A stretch of DNA of 64,000 nt from Chloroflexia bacterium SDU3-3 (GTDB lineage: Bacteria; Chloroflexota; Chloroflexia; Chloroflexales; Roseiflexaceae), in assembly GCA_009268125.1 (NCBI GenBank), contig WBOU01000003.1, positions 186,001-250,000 on the forward strand, written 5' to 3'. Positions 58,859 through 64,000 of the stretch are shown here, piece by piece. The first letter of the stretch is position 1; each line of letters starts with the position of its first letter. A model generated the notes under the pieces. That model searched no databases and was not told the DNA's origin. It saw nothing but the letters and a program-made list of their open reading frames with translations. Both the position numbers and the translations under genes were made by a program.

Positions 58859-59322
58859 CGCGCCTCCTGCTACATCGTGGTGGTGGGCTACGTCTGGTGG
58901 CCCACTGTTCCATCATCCCGACCGGCGTTATGACATGGAATCGTTATTCTATTCACAATTATCTTCAAATTACAGAAGAATCTGCGGATATCAGCCAAGA
59001 AGATTATGCTCTATCATCACAATTTCTCATTTTCAGTCTGGGCAGAATATGTTATACTCTCCCTTACCAATTCTATGTGCCACGAACTAATAGACATGCG
59101 AAGTAAACCATGGCGGTTTATTCACGTATGCAGATTCACGTGCCCAAATAATTTCATCACCGAAATCGTTATCGCCGTACGTTCAACATCATAGAAATAA
59201 AAGGGTAGCAATGAAACCATAACCCAACATCCAAACCACGATAGGTTTCACACACACCATAGCTCATCGTGTCTTTTTTCATGCCCGTTCCCCATGGGCA
59301 GCTAGAATATAAGGATGTTGCC
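58859..59322. other. Intergenic, AT-rich region before the first STAS gene
   Basis: 464 bp without a convincing gene, of distinctly higher AT content than its left neighbours. A TTATACT stretch near 59050 is a possible -10 box for the STAS operon. Confidence 0.5.
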
Positions 59323-60339
59323 GTGTTACGCACACTCTTCGCTATACGCACATCGGACCCCGATCAGTACTTTCGCGGCATGCTACTCAAGGGCATCACG
59401 CTGATTCTTGGTCTCGGCTCGCTGCTCGATATGCTCTTGGTTGCCATCCAGAACCCGCAAAGCGCAATCTTTTGGGGCACGCTGGTCGGCTCGATCGCGG
59501 CATGTATTGTCTTTGGGCTGGCGCATCTTGGGCGCATCAACGTAGGGGCCATTATCCTCGCTATCACCTTCTTGGCCATCACCTGTATCGTTGTGCCAAA
59601 TGAGAACCTGATCTATAGCCCGATTATTCTGATCTTCCTCTTTCCCATTCTGATTGTTGGACTGACGATAGATGCTACCGCATCAGCGCTTTTTGGTAGC
59701 CTCACGGTCATTGTGCTTGGGATACTTCTGCTCGTGAGCTATATCCCACAAAATTCTTGGAGCTTGCTTGCTATCTTGCTGCTTACTATCACCACAACGT
59801 TTTTATGGCTCGTGCTCTTCACCCTTGAGCGGGGCCGAAACCAAGCCCGCAAGCAGGCCCACGATCTTCAAGCAGCGCAGAATGTCATCCTCGCCCGCGA
59901 AGACGATCTCCAGGCCACCAACCAGCAGATGCAGAAGAAGAACGCCGACCTTGAGCATGTGCTAGAGCTGGTCAACCAGCTTGAAACGCCGATCATCCCG
60001 CTCACCGACGAAAGCCTGATCGTCCCGCTGGTCGGGCATCTCGATACGCGGCGGATCGAACATATACGCGAGATGGTGCTCGCAACCGTCTATCAGAGCC
60101 ATGCACGCTTCGTGCTGATCGACCTGACCGGCATTGCGATCATTGACACTGGTGTCATCAGCCGTCTCAACCATATCATCAAATGTATCCATCTGCTCGG
60201 AACGGAGGTACTTCTGACTGGCATTCGGGCGGATACCGCAATCACTATGACCACACTCGGAATCGACTTCGCTGACGTCTGGACATCAGCCAACCTTTCC
60301 GACGGAGTACGCCATGTCCTACGGCAAGTAGCTGTCTAA
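59323..60339 (+). CDS. Membrane-anchored RsbR-like STAS protein, paralogue 1
   Basis: 338 residues from a GTG at 59323, chosen because AAGGAT precedes it and the protein then lines up end to end with the two paralogues downstream. Order: short conserved start (FAIRTSDPDQYFRGMLLK), about six membrane helices (to ~residue 170), a coiled coil (ARKQAHDLQAAQNVILARED and on to ~230), then a STAS domain (IVPLVGHLDTRRIEHIREMV). The two positions expected to be phosphorylated by an RsbT-type kinase are Thr276 (IIDTGV) and Thr308 (AITMTT). It would act as a membrane stressosome sensor. The isoprenoid-synthase gene follows 15 bp later. Confidence 0.85.
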   Translation: MLRTLFAIRTSDPDQYFRGMLLKGITLILGLGSLLDMLLVAIQNPQSAIFWGTLVGSIAACIVFGLAHLGRINVGAIILAITFLAITCIVVPNENLIYSPIILIFLFPILIVGLTIDATASALFGSLTVIVLGILLLVSYIPQNSWSLLAILLLTITTTFLWLVLFTLERGRNQARKQAHDLQAAQNVILAREDDLQATNQQMQKKNADLEHVLELVNQLETPIIPLTDESLIVPLVGHLDTRRIEHIREMVLATVYQSHARFVLIDLTGIAIIDTGVISRLNHIIKCIHLLGTEVLLTGIRADTAITMTTLGIDFADVWTSANLSDGVRHVLRQVAV

Positions 60340-60354
60340 TGGTGGAGGTCTCCA

Positions 60355-61407
60355 ATGACGACGCTTACATTCCCCCAGCAGTTCCAGGGATTCTTTCACA
60401 GAACCAAAAGCCAGTATCTACCGCCACTGCTAATGGCACGAGCGACCCTGAATGATATTTCGATCCCCGACACGTTCGAGCCATTCTACGCCTATGCGGT
60501 AAAAGAGAATCCCCAGCCCTCATTTATGCTCCTTCCGCTCATGTATCTGGGCATCGCCGATGCCTATACAGGAATAAATGAGCGTCACCACCGCTATCTG
60601 CCATATATTATGCTGATGATGGAGCTCTGCGCCATCATGGATGATACCGTGGATCGCACGCCTATGCGATCCAGCAGACCAACCTTTACCCAGCGATTTG
60701 GCGAGGAGAGCGCAACTCCCTTCAGCGTCACGTTGCTATCGATAGCAACCCACGAGACATCGCGGCACGAGCCGCAGCTGCTGCCAGCCCTTCATCAGCT
60801 CGTAAGCGAGCTAGGATCGCGTGAGCTGTGGGAGATGCACAACCGCTATCCGCATCACACGCTTTTCAACCAGTGGCTCGACAACCGCTATGCCCAGGTC
60901 TCGCCTGCGATCGAATATGTCCTCAACGGGGCGCTCAGCATGGCCGATGGCCCCCAGCTTTCGCCCGCCGTCGTAGATGCATTTGCCCGCATCTTCCAAG
61001 ACGTGGACGATGTGATCAACATCATCGAGGCGCGCGAGAACGAGGGCGAAAACCGCGACCTTGACCTGGGCATTGTCACCTACCCGCTGATCGCCGCGTG
61101 CGAGGCGGTGCCAGGGCTGGATCGCGCGATCACACAGTTCTGGCAGCCCTACCACGCTATTGCCAAGCTGCCGCGCGCCCAGTTCCTCGCCGAGCTGCCC
61201 GGCGTGATCGCCGCCCAGCAGCAAGCCAGCGACCATATCTACGAGTGCTTCCACGAGTATGGCATCCCGGCCACCATCCGCCACATCGAGGAAGACTGCG
61301 CCATCTGCATCGAGAACACGCCCGAGGGGCCGCTGCGCACGATCATCGAGGAGTTCGTGCTCACCTTCGCCGCACGTATCCCGCAGCTGCACGTGCGCAC
61401 AGTCTAG
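60355..61407 (+). CDS. Polyprenyl-synthetase superfamily protein
   Basis: 350 residues with a strong GGAGGT site. An all-alpha isoprenoid-synthase protein: first Asp-rich motif DDTVD at 96-100 followed by RTPMRSSRPTFTQRFGEES (the R-x-x-R-P pattern), second motif FQDVDDVINIIE at 214-225, and a late LGIVTYPLIAA where chain-elongating enzymes have K-T-x-P. The Asp motifs suggest magnesium and diphosphate binding; the missing Lys in the K-T region and low overall similarity make a terpene-cyclase-like or regulatory role equally possible. It lies in the operon of the first STAS paralogue and ends at a terminator. Confidence 0.8.
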   Translation: MTTLTFPQQFQGFFHRTKSQYLPPLLMARATLNDISIPDTFEPFYAYAVKENPQPSFMLLPLMYLGIADAYTGINERHHRYLPYIMLMMELCAIMDDTVDRTPMRSSRPTFTQRFGEESATPFSVTLLSIATHETSRHEPQLLPALHQLVSELGSRELWEMHNRYPHHTLFNQWLDNRYAQVSPAIEYVLNGALSMADGPQLSPAVVDAFARIFQDVDDVINIIEARENEGENRDLDLGIVTYPLIAACEAVPGLDRAITQFWQPYHAIAKLPRAQFLAELPGVIAAQQQASDHIYECFHEYGIPATIRHIEEDCAICIENTPEGPLRTIIEEFVLTFAARIPQLHVRTV

Positions 61408-61440: not shown

Positions 61441-61482
61441 AACGCCACCGCCCGCGCAAGCTTCTGCGCGGGCGGTGGCGTT
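61441..61482 (+). terminator. Terminator after the isoprenoid-synthase gene
   Basis: 18-bp perfect stem AACGCCACCGCCCGCGCA (61441-61458) with its complement at 61465-61482, 6-nt loop, followed by GCGC and not by a U-run. Confidence 0.65.
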
Positions 61483-61587
61483 GCGCAAGCACAGGCTGGG
61501 CAACGGCAGAAACACCGCCCTATCGATGGGATGCGCAATGCAGGCACATCCAGCAGCATGCGCCCACATCCCTATAAATTCACCTCC

Positions 61588-61665: not shown

Positions 61666-62685
61666 ATGCTCAGCACCATCTTCGGCATCCGATCCAGCGA
61701 TCCCGATCAGCGGTCCCGTGGCCTTCTGCTCAAATGTATCACGATCATCTTTGGGCTAGCCATCCTCAGCTCATTCACGATCACCATCCTCGGCCAGCAG
61801 ATCGCCCAAAAGATCCTAATCGGCGACATTGCCATGCTGCTGATCTCGGTGGCGGTGTTTGTGCTGGCCCACGTGGGGCGCGTGAGCTTGGGCGCAATGG
61901 CGCTCGCCATCCCACTGATGCTCAGCATCTTTATCACCCTGCCGCACAATCAGCTGCTCGAACGCCCCACCATGGTGACGCTGTTCTTCCCCATGATGAT
62001 CATCGGCCTGACCGTGCACGCCAGAGCCGCCGCGATCTTCTCGGGCATCACGCTGCTGATCACCGCCGCGCTGCTGATCGCCGGTAATATCCCCTTCACC
62101 TCGTTCAGCATCATCGCCCTCGTGCTGCTGGTGATGACCATGATCTTCATCTGGCTGATCATCTTCACCATGGAGCGTGGCCGCGACAGCGCGCGCGCCC
62201 AGGCCGCCACCATCCAGCAGAGCAAAGATCTGCTGCAGGCCAGCGAGCGCGACCTGCAGGCCACCAACCAGCAGATGCAGCAGAAAAATGATCAGCTCGA
62301 ACACGCGCTGAACCTCGTGCAGCAGCTAGAGGTGCCGGTCATCCCGCTGATCGCTGGCGCGGTGGTGGTTCCAATTGTCGGCTACCTCGATAATCGACGC
62401 CTCGACGCCATCCAGCGCAACGTGCTCTACAGCATCCACACCCACAACGCCCGGTTTGTGCTGATCGACCTCACTGGCCTAGCCCAGTTCGACAGCGAGA
62501 TCATCCGCCAGTTCCAGCGGCTAGTGCAGGGCATCTCGCTACTGGGAGCCGAGGCGCTGCTCACCGGCATCAGCGCCGAGATCGCTGCCAGCTTGATCGA
62601 TAACGAGATCAGCTTTGACCATATCTGGACCTCGGGCAACCTCTCCAGTGCAATACGCTATGTGCTGCAAAATGCCACTGTCTAG
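61666..62685 (+). CDS. Membrane-anchored RsbR-like STAS protein, paralogue 2
   Basis: 339 residues, AAGGGAAGG before the ATG. Same layout as paralogue 1: FGIRSSDPDQRSRGLLLK start, about six membrane helices, coiled coil (SERDLQATNQQMQQKNDQLE), STAS domain (VVPIVGYLDNRRLDAIQRNV). The predicted phosphoacceptor positions are Ser277 (FDSEI) and Ser309 (IAASLI), i.e. Ser in place of Thr at both. The arginine of the G-I-R motif is also replaced by Ser (GISAE). It has its own promoter motif, so it can be made independently of paralogue 1. Confidence 0.85.
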   Translation: MLSTIFGIRSSDPDQRSRGLLLKCITIIFGLAILSSFTITILGQQIAQKILIGDIAMLLISVAVFVLAHVGRVSLGAMALAIPLMLSIFITLPHNQLLERPTMVTLFFPMMIIGLTVHARAAAIFSGITLLITAALLIAGNIPFTSFSIIALVLLVMTMIFIWLIIFTMERGRDSARAQAATIQQSKDLLQASERDLQATNQQMQQKNDQLEHALNLVQQLEVPVIPLIAGAVVVPIVGYLDNRRLDAIQRNVLYSIHTHNARFVLIDLTGLAQFDSEIIRQFQRLVQGISLLGAEALLTGISAEIAASLIDNEISFDHIWTSGNLSSAIRYVLQNATV

Positions 62686-62794: not shown

Positions 62795-63814
62795 ATGCTT
62801 GCAGCTATCTTCACTATCCGCACTACCGACGCCGATCGTTTCGTGCGCGGCATCCTGCTCAAGAGCATGGTGCTGATCAGCGCCATCGGCCTGATCACCA
62901 TTTTCATCATGGTCGACCCAAACTCGCCGATGCGCCAGAGCATAAACGCTGGCATCTTCGCGATGCTGGCTTGCCTGCCCATCGTCTTCGCACTGGCGCA
63001 CTATGGCAAAATCCACACGGGGTCACTGCTGCTGGCCATCCCGCTGCTGCTGGTGATCTTCTTCGCCGTGCCGCGCACCGAGGTGCTAGAAAAGCCCAGC
63101 ACGATGCTGCTGCTCATCCCCACGCTCATCGTAGGCATCACCATCCACTCGCGGGCAGCGGCGATCTTTGCCGCCAGCACGGTGGTGCTGGCCGTGGCGC
63201 TGATGTCCAGCGGTTATGTCCCATCGGTGCGCGGCACTAATCTGGCGGTGGTCTACCTGGTCGCCACGTTGCTATTTATCTGGCTGCTGATCTACACCCT
63301 AGAGCGCGGGCGCGACGAAGCTCGCAAACAGTCGGCGGCAGCGCAGCAGCGCCAGGCACTGCTGGCCGAACGCGAGCAGGAGCTGCAGCATAACAATGAT
63401 GACATGCAGCTCAAGAATGCCGAGCTAGAGCGCGCACTGGCCCTGGTGCAGCAGCTCGAGATGCCGATCATCCCAATCGGCCACAGCGCGGTGATTGTGC
63501 CGCTGGTTGGCCACATCGACATGCCGCGCGCCGAGAAGATCCAGGCCAACATCCTAGGCAGCGTCTATCAGCAGCGCGCAAACCATGTAATCATTGACCT
63601 CACTGGCGCAACCGAGATCGCCCCCGAGGTGAGCGATCAGCTGCTGAAGATCATCCACACCATCGCACTACTGGGCGCGCATGTGATGCTCACCGGCATC
63701 AGCAGCACCATGGCGATGGCTCTGGTGGAAAAAGACATCCGGCTTGATGGGATCTGGACGTCGGGCAATCTGGCCGATGCTATCCACTATGTCATCGAGC
63801 ACTCGGCACCCTAG
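62795..63814 (+). CDS. Membrane-anchored RsbR-like STAS protein, paralogue 3, without phosphoacceptors
   Basis: 339 residues. Same plan (FTIRTTDADRFVRGILLK, membrane helices, coiled coil EREQELQHNNDDMQLKNAEL, STAS domain IVPLVGHIDMPRAEKIQANI). At the two positions where paralogues 1 and 2 have Thr or Ser it has Pro277 (EIAPEV) and Ala309 (MAMALV), so it should not be switched by an RsbT-type kinase; it could be a constant structural member or dominant form of the complex. Weak ribosome site. A long hairpin follows. Confidence 0.85.
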   Translation: MLAAIFTIRTTDADRFVRGILLKSMVLISAIGLITIFIMVDPNSPMRQSINAGIFAMLACLPIVFALAHYGKIHTGSLLLAIPLLLVIFFAVPRTEVLEKPSTMLLLIPTLIVGITIHSRAAAIFAASTVVLAVALMSSGYVPSVRGTNLAVVYLVATLLFIWLLIYTLERGRDEARKQSAAAQQRQALLAEREQELQHNNDDMQLKNAELERALALVQQLEMPIIPIGHSAVIVPLVGHIDMPRAEKIQANILGSVYQQRANHVIIDLTGATEIAPEVSDQLLKIIHTIALLGAHVMLTGISSTMAMALVEKDIRLDGIWTSGNLADAIHYVIEHSAP

Positions 63815-63919: not shown

Positions 63920-64000
63920 CCCCTGCAAGAGCCTATGCCGCCCCTGCAAGAGCCTATGCCGCCCCTGCAAGAGCCTGTGCCGCCCCTGCAAGAGCCTGTG
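63920..64000 (+). repeat. 21-bp tandem array running off the window end
   Basis: Units of CCCCTGCAAGAGCCTATGCC plus G begin at 63920, 63941, 63962 and 63983, with a single A-to-G change in the last two. Same unit length as the array at 29844, different sequence. Confidence 0.9.

Follow-up and report, generated by a model that had tools for sequence, protein, structure and literature searches.

Farnesyl diphosphate synthases hold IPP through GKxR, a His, and the second Arg, and hold the allylic diphosphate through the Asp motifs, the first Arg, and two lysines; besides the Asp motifs, three residues usually hold the allylic diphosphate, and the lysines of the KT and GK motifs are two of them. 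The known cytokinin-type transferases belong to a different protein family and have a P-loop fold.

Several described systems come close to parts of the locus presented here. Terpene synthases of insects differ from the chain-making synthases in having lost the IPP site (PMC10962984, PMC12376265). ComQ of Bacillus, which isoprenylates the ComX pheromone, also has the PF00348 fold, with its first Asp motif kept and its second altered (PMC5331326). Class ID terpene synthases (PeuTPS, HauTPS, and SceTPS) are non-canonical, come in some cases from non-actinomycetes, and carry the motifs D(N/D), ND, and RXXKD (PMC11234867). Release of cytokinins from their nucleotides takes either a single LOG step or two steps, catalysed by a phosphatase and a nucleosidase (PMC12066119, PMC8234997). 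SpoIIAA-like proteins of the STAS clan show similarity to CRAL-TRIO carriers, including the capacity for a deep nonpolar cavity (PMC2954212). Our literature search, outside which most subscription papers lay, did not turn up any report of a STAS gene linked with a prenyl-synthase gene, and the pairing of the two is likely a novelty.

The gene and its locus

The window, i.e., the whole 64,000-nucleotide stretch of DNA analysed, carries at 60355–61407 (forward strand, as for all features below; ATG start) an open reading frame of 350 aa encoding a prenyl-synthase-like protein. This protein scores 48.7 bits against PF00348 (polyprenyl synthetase; cut-off, 27), so the family assignment is not by chance, and sequence profile and predicted fold alike place it in the trans-isoprenyl diphosphate synthase superfamily. 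An AlphaFold model built from 13 family sequences has a pLDDT of 91.3 (81.8 for an earlier model), and its best matches among solved folds are trans-prenyl diphosphate synthases, including a solanesyl diphosphate synthase (Z of 29.7; 2.8 Å over 305 residues; 17% identity). Solanesyl, decaprenyl, and hexaprenyl diphosphate synthases lead both the fold and the sequence matches; canonical class I terpene synthase structures do not occur among the fold matches listed, a list filled by prenyl synthases. No curated NCBIfam family matches the 350-aa protein above its cut-off, and the best such matches of the other family members are weak too. We thus regard the family as an unnamed variant inside the trans-prenyl-synthase superfamily.

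The partner gene, STAS1 (59269–60339), encodes a membrane protein with several hydrophobic segments and a C-terminal RsbR/YtvA-like STAS domain (IDLTGIAIIDTGV), which scores 47.3 bits against PF01740 (family cut-off, 22.6); its best NCBIfam match, a YtvA-family model, is below that model's cut-off. Downstream lie two membrane STAS paralogues of STAS1, namely STAS2 (61666–62685; PF01740, 36.2 bits; 45% identity to STAS1) and STAS3 (62795–63814; PF01740, 35.9 bits; 41% identity), and the locus is thus one of three tandem membrane STAS genes with the enzyme gene between the first and the second. Membrane segments and paralogues were identified by hydropathy and a paralogue search.

A preliminary description of this DNA had placed the enzyme gene 15 bp after the first membrane STAS gene, behind a strong ribosome site, and had it end at a terminator. 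The spacing is exact, with 15 bases between the end of STAS1 at 60339 and the ATG, and the ribosome-binding region (60343–60354) presents GGAGG approximately seven bases 5′ of the start codon. Given this spacing and the shared direction, we infer that STAS1 and the enzyme gene form an operon. As to the terminator, a strong hairpin with a perfect 19-bp stem does follow the gene (about 61441–61484; fold z-score, −5.8) and is probably the end of the transcript; it has no T run and is not listed by a consensus terminator scan, and that part of the claim thus stands as an interpretation of the hairpin. The hairpin has no repeat elsewhere in the window.

A 21-bp tandem array (10.9 copies, 96% matches) lies just behind STAS3 (window 63920–64000 and on; locus L026 9920–10148), and approximately 10 kb behind the STAS locus (G000:C3:259640–261060) are two STAS matches, each with an internal stop (TAG and TGA), that look like decaying copies.

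With a GC content of 0.535 for STAS1 and 0.59 for the enzyme gene, both lie below the mean of the window's genes (0.673; sd, 0.046), which suggests gene transfer into this genome. Two further PF00348 genes of the same genome have the usual motifs, enough for housekeeping. Another PF00348 protein of this genome (94 bits; G000:C15:54372–55016; locus L035 9246–10190) has lost both Asp-rich motifs (VHMAMLD and YQVAQDVAD) and may be catalytically dead or a regulatory subunit. Neither the enzyme nor STAS1 has a match in PADLOC, which was run for a defence role.

Active-site residues and phylogeny of the family

Motifs were compared between the 13 family members and canonical synthases of Chloroflexota. 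As the preliminary description reported, both Asp-rich motifs are present in the window's protein, DDTVD at residues 96–100 and DVDDVIN at residues 216–222. The first, together with the R-S-S-R-P-T that follows it, spans 60640–60684, and Ser there replaces the second Arg of RRG; the second forms part of FQDVDDVIN (60994–61020), in which Asn replaces the third Asp. In all 13 members, D96, D97, D100, R105, and S106 are invariant, as are Q215, D218, and D219; i.e., what the family retains is DDxxD with the first Arg behind it and the Q..DD of the second motif, and in every member the third Asp of that motif is Asn or Gly (DDxxN or DDxxG).

The residues that normally hold IPP have fared differently from these kept positions. 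Throughout the 13 members, GGKRxR is replaced by a sequence of the NPQPSF type (60508–60525 in the window) and the second Arg of RRG by the invariant Ser; the His before the first Asp-rich motif is also replaced. With these residues gone, so is the IPP site, and the allylic site is partly kept. Losses on the allylic side comprise the KT lysine, replaced mostly by Gln (RYAQVS sits at its place in the window, 60886–60903), and the lysine of GK, which across the family has become an invariant GE (Glu232 of GENRDLDLGIVTYP, 61045–61086, where GKxxDxxxGxxTLP normally sits). That the usual K-T-x-P lysine is lacking (GIVTYP) had been correctly noted before; it is merely one among several losses. Of the features of a chain-elongating synthase, then, the first DDxxD is present, and the second DDxxD, GKxR with the second Arg, and the KT and GK lysines are absent. 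Loss of the IPP-site residues together with these two lysines makes chain elongation by the family unlikely, as far as can be judged from conserved residues. Within Herpetosiphon, dN/dS is 0.02–0.09 (about 0.05), indicating that the protein is strongly constrained by purifying selection.

Relative to long-chain trans-prenyl diphosphate synthases (PF00348), the family thus shares the whole-length fold and the DDxxD and Q..DD motifs, but differs in its 17% identity and in lacking the IPP site, the KT and GK lysines, and the third Asp of the second motif.

The family is narrowly distributed. Within the order, of which 82 genomes were searched, clear relatives (37–43% identity) are confined to one other family, where seven genomes have them. 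The named copies come from Herpetosiphon species and a Herpetosiphonaceae MAG, and the matches of lower score are ordinary synthases; 400 genomes sampled from the phylum yielded no additional clear relative. Searching named genomes by profile brought in one more, a MAG labelled Deltaproteobacteria (SZUA-265), and a search of its phylum and order added four more genomes. The resulting five (G504, G879, G740, G831, and G988) are termed myxobacteria-like on the basis of genome size and gene content, and probably belong to the Polyangiales. The clade was found here only in Herpetosiphonaceae, the window's genome, and these five. A single-protein scan of genome contigs and a phage search found no relative, and a plasmid search gave one match, an ordinary nonaprenyl synthase.

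A phylogenetic tree puts ten family members in a single clade (100/100), the stem of which measures 4.7 changes per column and which excludes both the canonical synthases and ComQ; long branches make the exact attachment point of the clade unsafe. The protein is therefore not placed with any housekeeping prenyl synthase; had it been, the preliminary description would by its own terms have been refuted. Profile comparison by hhalign gives 98.4% for the family with canonical synthases and 0.2% with ComQ. ComQ shares with it the prenyl-synthase fold, a signalling locus, a kept allylic site, and an altered second Asp motif; profile similarity stops at the common fold, and the family differs in having no ComX gene and other kept residues.

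Class ID terpene synthases were also considered, as HauTPS and SceTPS belong to them, and were rejected: ND and RXXKD are unconserved in the family alignment. Compared by published motifs rather than by the HauTPS sequence, class ID motifs are not the family's conserved ones. As judged from conserved residues, the family lacks some of the features that define chain-elongating synthases, ComQ, and canonical class I terpene synthases, and would be placed outside all three.

Neighbouring genes across genomes

Restriction of the pair to one genome was the other outcome that would have refuted the preliminary description. The order of membrane STAS gene, then enzyme gene is not unique to the window's genome, since it is also present in the Herpetosiphonaceae MAG (G049) with a gap of 14 bp. 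The STAS protein of G049 was compared with those retrieved from the window's genome, and its best match, by a narrow margin, is STAS1 (178 bits, versus 164 for another paralogue). The enzyme gene of Herpetosiphon is preceded by a soluble STAS gene and a DUF1003 gene, and 33 bp downstream of it begins a membrane histidine kinase gene adjoined by a response regulator gene; no common ancestry of the membrane domains of the kinase and the STAS protein was found (hhalign, 0.4%). Between the DUF1003 and enzyme genes, the Herpetosiphon aurantiacus locus also contains an open reading frame of 61 aa with one hydrophobic segment (L028 9304–9489); similar frames are listed in two other Herpetosiphon loci, with no family match over cut-off. 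The enzyme gene of Herpetosiphon aurantiacus lies at about 3714404–3715423 of CP000875.1.

A looser form of the STAS-clan association reaches a second, distant phylum, that of the myxobacteria-like genomes. In G740, G831, and G988, the next gene encodes a SpoIIAA-like protein (STAS clan, CRAL-TRIO-like; two copies in G740), with scores at or just under the PF11964 cut-off. Genome-wide, strong matches to these four proteins occur only beside the enzyme gene (178–214 bits; the next, 40); the query was built from the four themselves, but other close copies would have appeared. G879 encodes a SpoIIAA-like plus STAS protein approximately 3 kb from the enzyme gene, and no STAS-clan gene was found near that of G504. 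STAS-clan genes thus adjoin or lie near the enzyme gene in 7/8 lineages, and STAS genes are absent from control regions round the three other PF00348 genes of the genome. The chance of such adjacency is roughly 0.1–4% per genome, values that we do not combine because G740 and G831 are syntenic, and hence not independent, and because the type of neighbour in the myxobacteria-like genomes was noticed rather than predefined. With respect to described SpoIIAA-like carriers and RsbR-type STAS sensors, the likeness is that STAS-clan partners adjoin the enzyme gene; the differences are the borderline PF11964 scores of the neighbours and the window's own partner, a membrane PF01740 protein.

Nucleotide-cleaving enzymes are a second theme of the myxobacteria-like loci. 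HAD phosphatase genes occur in four of the five (G504, G740, G831, and G988), LOG-family phosphoribohydrolase genes in G504 and G879 (the latter having LOG but no HAD), and nucleoside hydrolase genes in G740, G831, and G988, such that each of the five has either LOG or a nucleoside hydrolase, and the last three genomes have in common a cluster made up of the enzyme gene and the genes for HAD, the SpoIIAA-like protein, and nucleoside hydrolase. The LOG proteins are over the TIGR00730 cut-off, but not over that of the cytokinin-specific model. These neighbours, which were outside the view of the preliminary description and are the context that tells most, recall the cytokinin pathway, with its adenylate isopentenyltransferase and either LOG or phosphatase plus nucleosidase, and they speak for a transferase or a synthase more than for a sensor pure and simple. 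Unlike these loci, the Chloroflexota operons, that of the window included, lack all three gene types (LOG, nucleoside hydrolase, and HAD) next to the enzyme gene.

At L036 7372–9730 and L054 6687–8361, the LOG-family gene overlaps the start of the prenyl-synthase-like gene, and at L036 an overlapping HAD phosphatase gene then follows as well; a compact operon for a prenylated nucleobase is possible. Nucleoside hydrolases (PF01156) adjoin SpoIIAA-like and prenyl-synthase-like genes at L055 6645–7859, L056 10807–11964, and L058 6322–7836; their N-terminal parts have, by eye, the appearance of lipoprotein-type signal sequences, and they may act outside the cytoplasm.

Candidate functions

Our tentative preference, which we hold with more doubt than conviction, is for an active enzyme of trans-isoprenyl diphosphate synthase ancestry, one that would use an allylic prenyl diphosphate with an acceptor other than IPP, or with none, to make a small isoprenoid ligand of its STAS-fold partner. 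The allylic diphosphate would still be bound through Mg2+ and IPP would no longer be bound, such that the product would be a small isoprenoid instead of a longer chain. Were there an acceptor, it would most likely be a nucleotide, affording a prenyl or terpenyl purine-like product; with no acceptor, terpene-synthase chemistry would result. The product would then be the ligand of the STAS-fold protein encoded alongside, i.e., a membrane RsbR-like STAS protein in the window's genome and a SpoIIAA-like (CRAL-TRIO-like) protein in the myxobacteria-like genomes. The deep nonpolar cavity of SpoIIAA-like proteins suits such an isoprenoid ligand. A nucleotide acceptor, which we consider doubtful, is favoured by the co-occurrence of both cytokinin-releasing enzyme sets with this prenyl-transfer-type enzyme. 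Unlikely in its entirety, and more so than that single step, is a full isoprenoid signalling module, in which an enzyme of the trans-prenyl-synthase fold would prenylate a nucleotide, nucleotide-cleaving enzymes would release from it a terpenyl base resembling a cytokinin, and the receptor or carrier of that base would be a STAS-fold protein, either membrane RsbR-like or SpoIIAA-like. The family may thus work like a synthase-derived terpene synthase or like a cytokinin-type prenyltransferase. Against the ligand-making reading are the abundance of STAS genes in Chloroflexota, the G504 locus with no nearby STAS-clan gene, the borderline PF11964 scores of the SpoIIAA-like proteins, and the Chloroflexota operons with no nucleotide enzymes; moreover, loss of the KT and GK lysines could mean a protein that only binds.

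Terpene synthesis alone is an unlikely account of the family, and the one that survives best among the alternatives. GPP, FPP, or GGPP would be ionised to a terpene or prenyl alcohol, a secondary metabolite rather than a STAS signal, with the STAS neighbour regulating or carrying the terpene or sitting there for other reasons. The pattern of the family, Asp motifs retained and IPP site lost, is the one that marks the synthase-derived terpene synthases of insects, and profile matches of the family extend to the prenyltransferase domains of fungal chimeric terpene synthases. The insect enzymes arose independently, in animals, and their activity has been demonstrated; the family described here has a predicted activity and signalling and nucleotide-enzyme neighbours. 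The NSE/DTE motif of canonical class I terpene synthases is absent, there being no such conserved columns in the family alignment, where DDxxN/G is instead followed three to four residues later by an invariant Glu225. LOG, nucleoside hydrolase, and HAD neighbours would be unexpected for a plain terpene, and the recurrence of STAS-clan genes would be left unexplained.

Slightly less credible is a catalytically dead sensor, one that would bind prenyl diphosphate or Mg2+-diphosphate, signal to the STAS protein by direct contact, and so report isoprenoid supply. The KT and GK lysines are indeed lost along with the IPP site, co-orientation with a membrane STAS gene is tight in two lineages, and several loci have signalling neighbours. 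Yet all five Asp residues of the two motifs are unchanged in both phyla, an argument for retained metal chemistry, and the nucleotide-cleaving neighbours suggest that there is a product.

Improbable, in turn, is an ordinary prenyl diphosphate synthase with drifted motifs that lies beside STAS genes by chance in STAS-rich genomes. The family's best matches by fold and sequence are long-chain synthases, and Chloroflexota genomes contain 33–56 STAS genes each (53 matches in all in the window's genome). However, the compared IPP-site residues are lost clade-wide, the clade is separate at 100/100, and the association recurs in genomes where SpoIIAA-like genes number 1–4 per genome, with a rough chance of adjacency of 0.1–4%.

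A ComQ-like peptide prenyltransferase of quorum sensing, with a small precursor peptide and a kinase or STAS protein as receptor, is very improbable: for all that ComQ has the same fold and that Herpetosiphon has a kinase and a response regulator gene close by, hhalign against three ComQ proteins gives almost nothing, ComQ is placed elsewhere in the tree, nearby small open reading frames have no ComX match in a run that did match true ComX, and the gap between STAS and enzyme genes in the window and in G049 has no room for a peptide gene. ComQXPA-like quorum sensing had been an early favourite from the Herpetosiphon kinase and response regulator genes and was dropped on the profile, tree, and ComX tests.

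Ultimately, the family constitutes an unnamed bacterial branch of prenyl synthases in which the acceptor site has been rebuilt, and the copy in Herpetosiphon aurantiacus DSM 785 renders its chemistry directly testable. Many stressosome-type and membrane STAS sensors have no known signal, and a dedicated enzyme gene conserved alongside them would offer a handle on the ligand. If true, the signalling module would represent a new use of this fold and would provide a defined small-molecule ligand for a STAS sensor.
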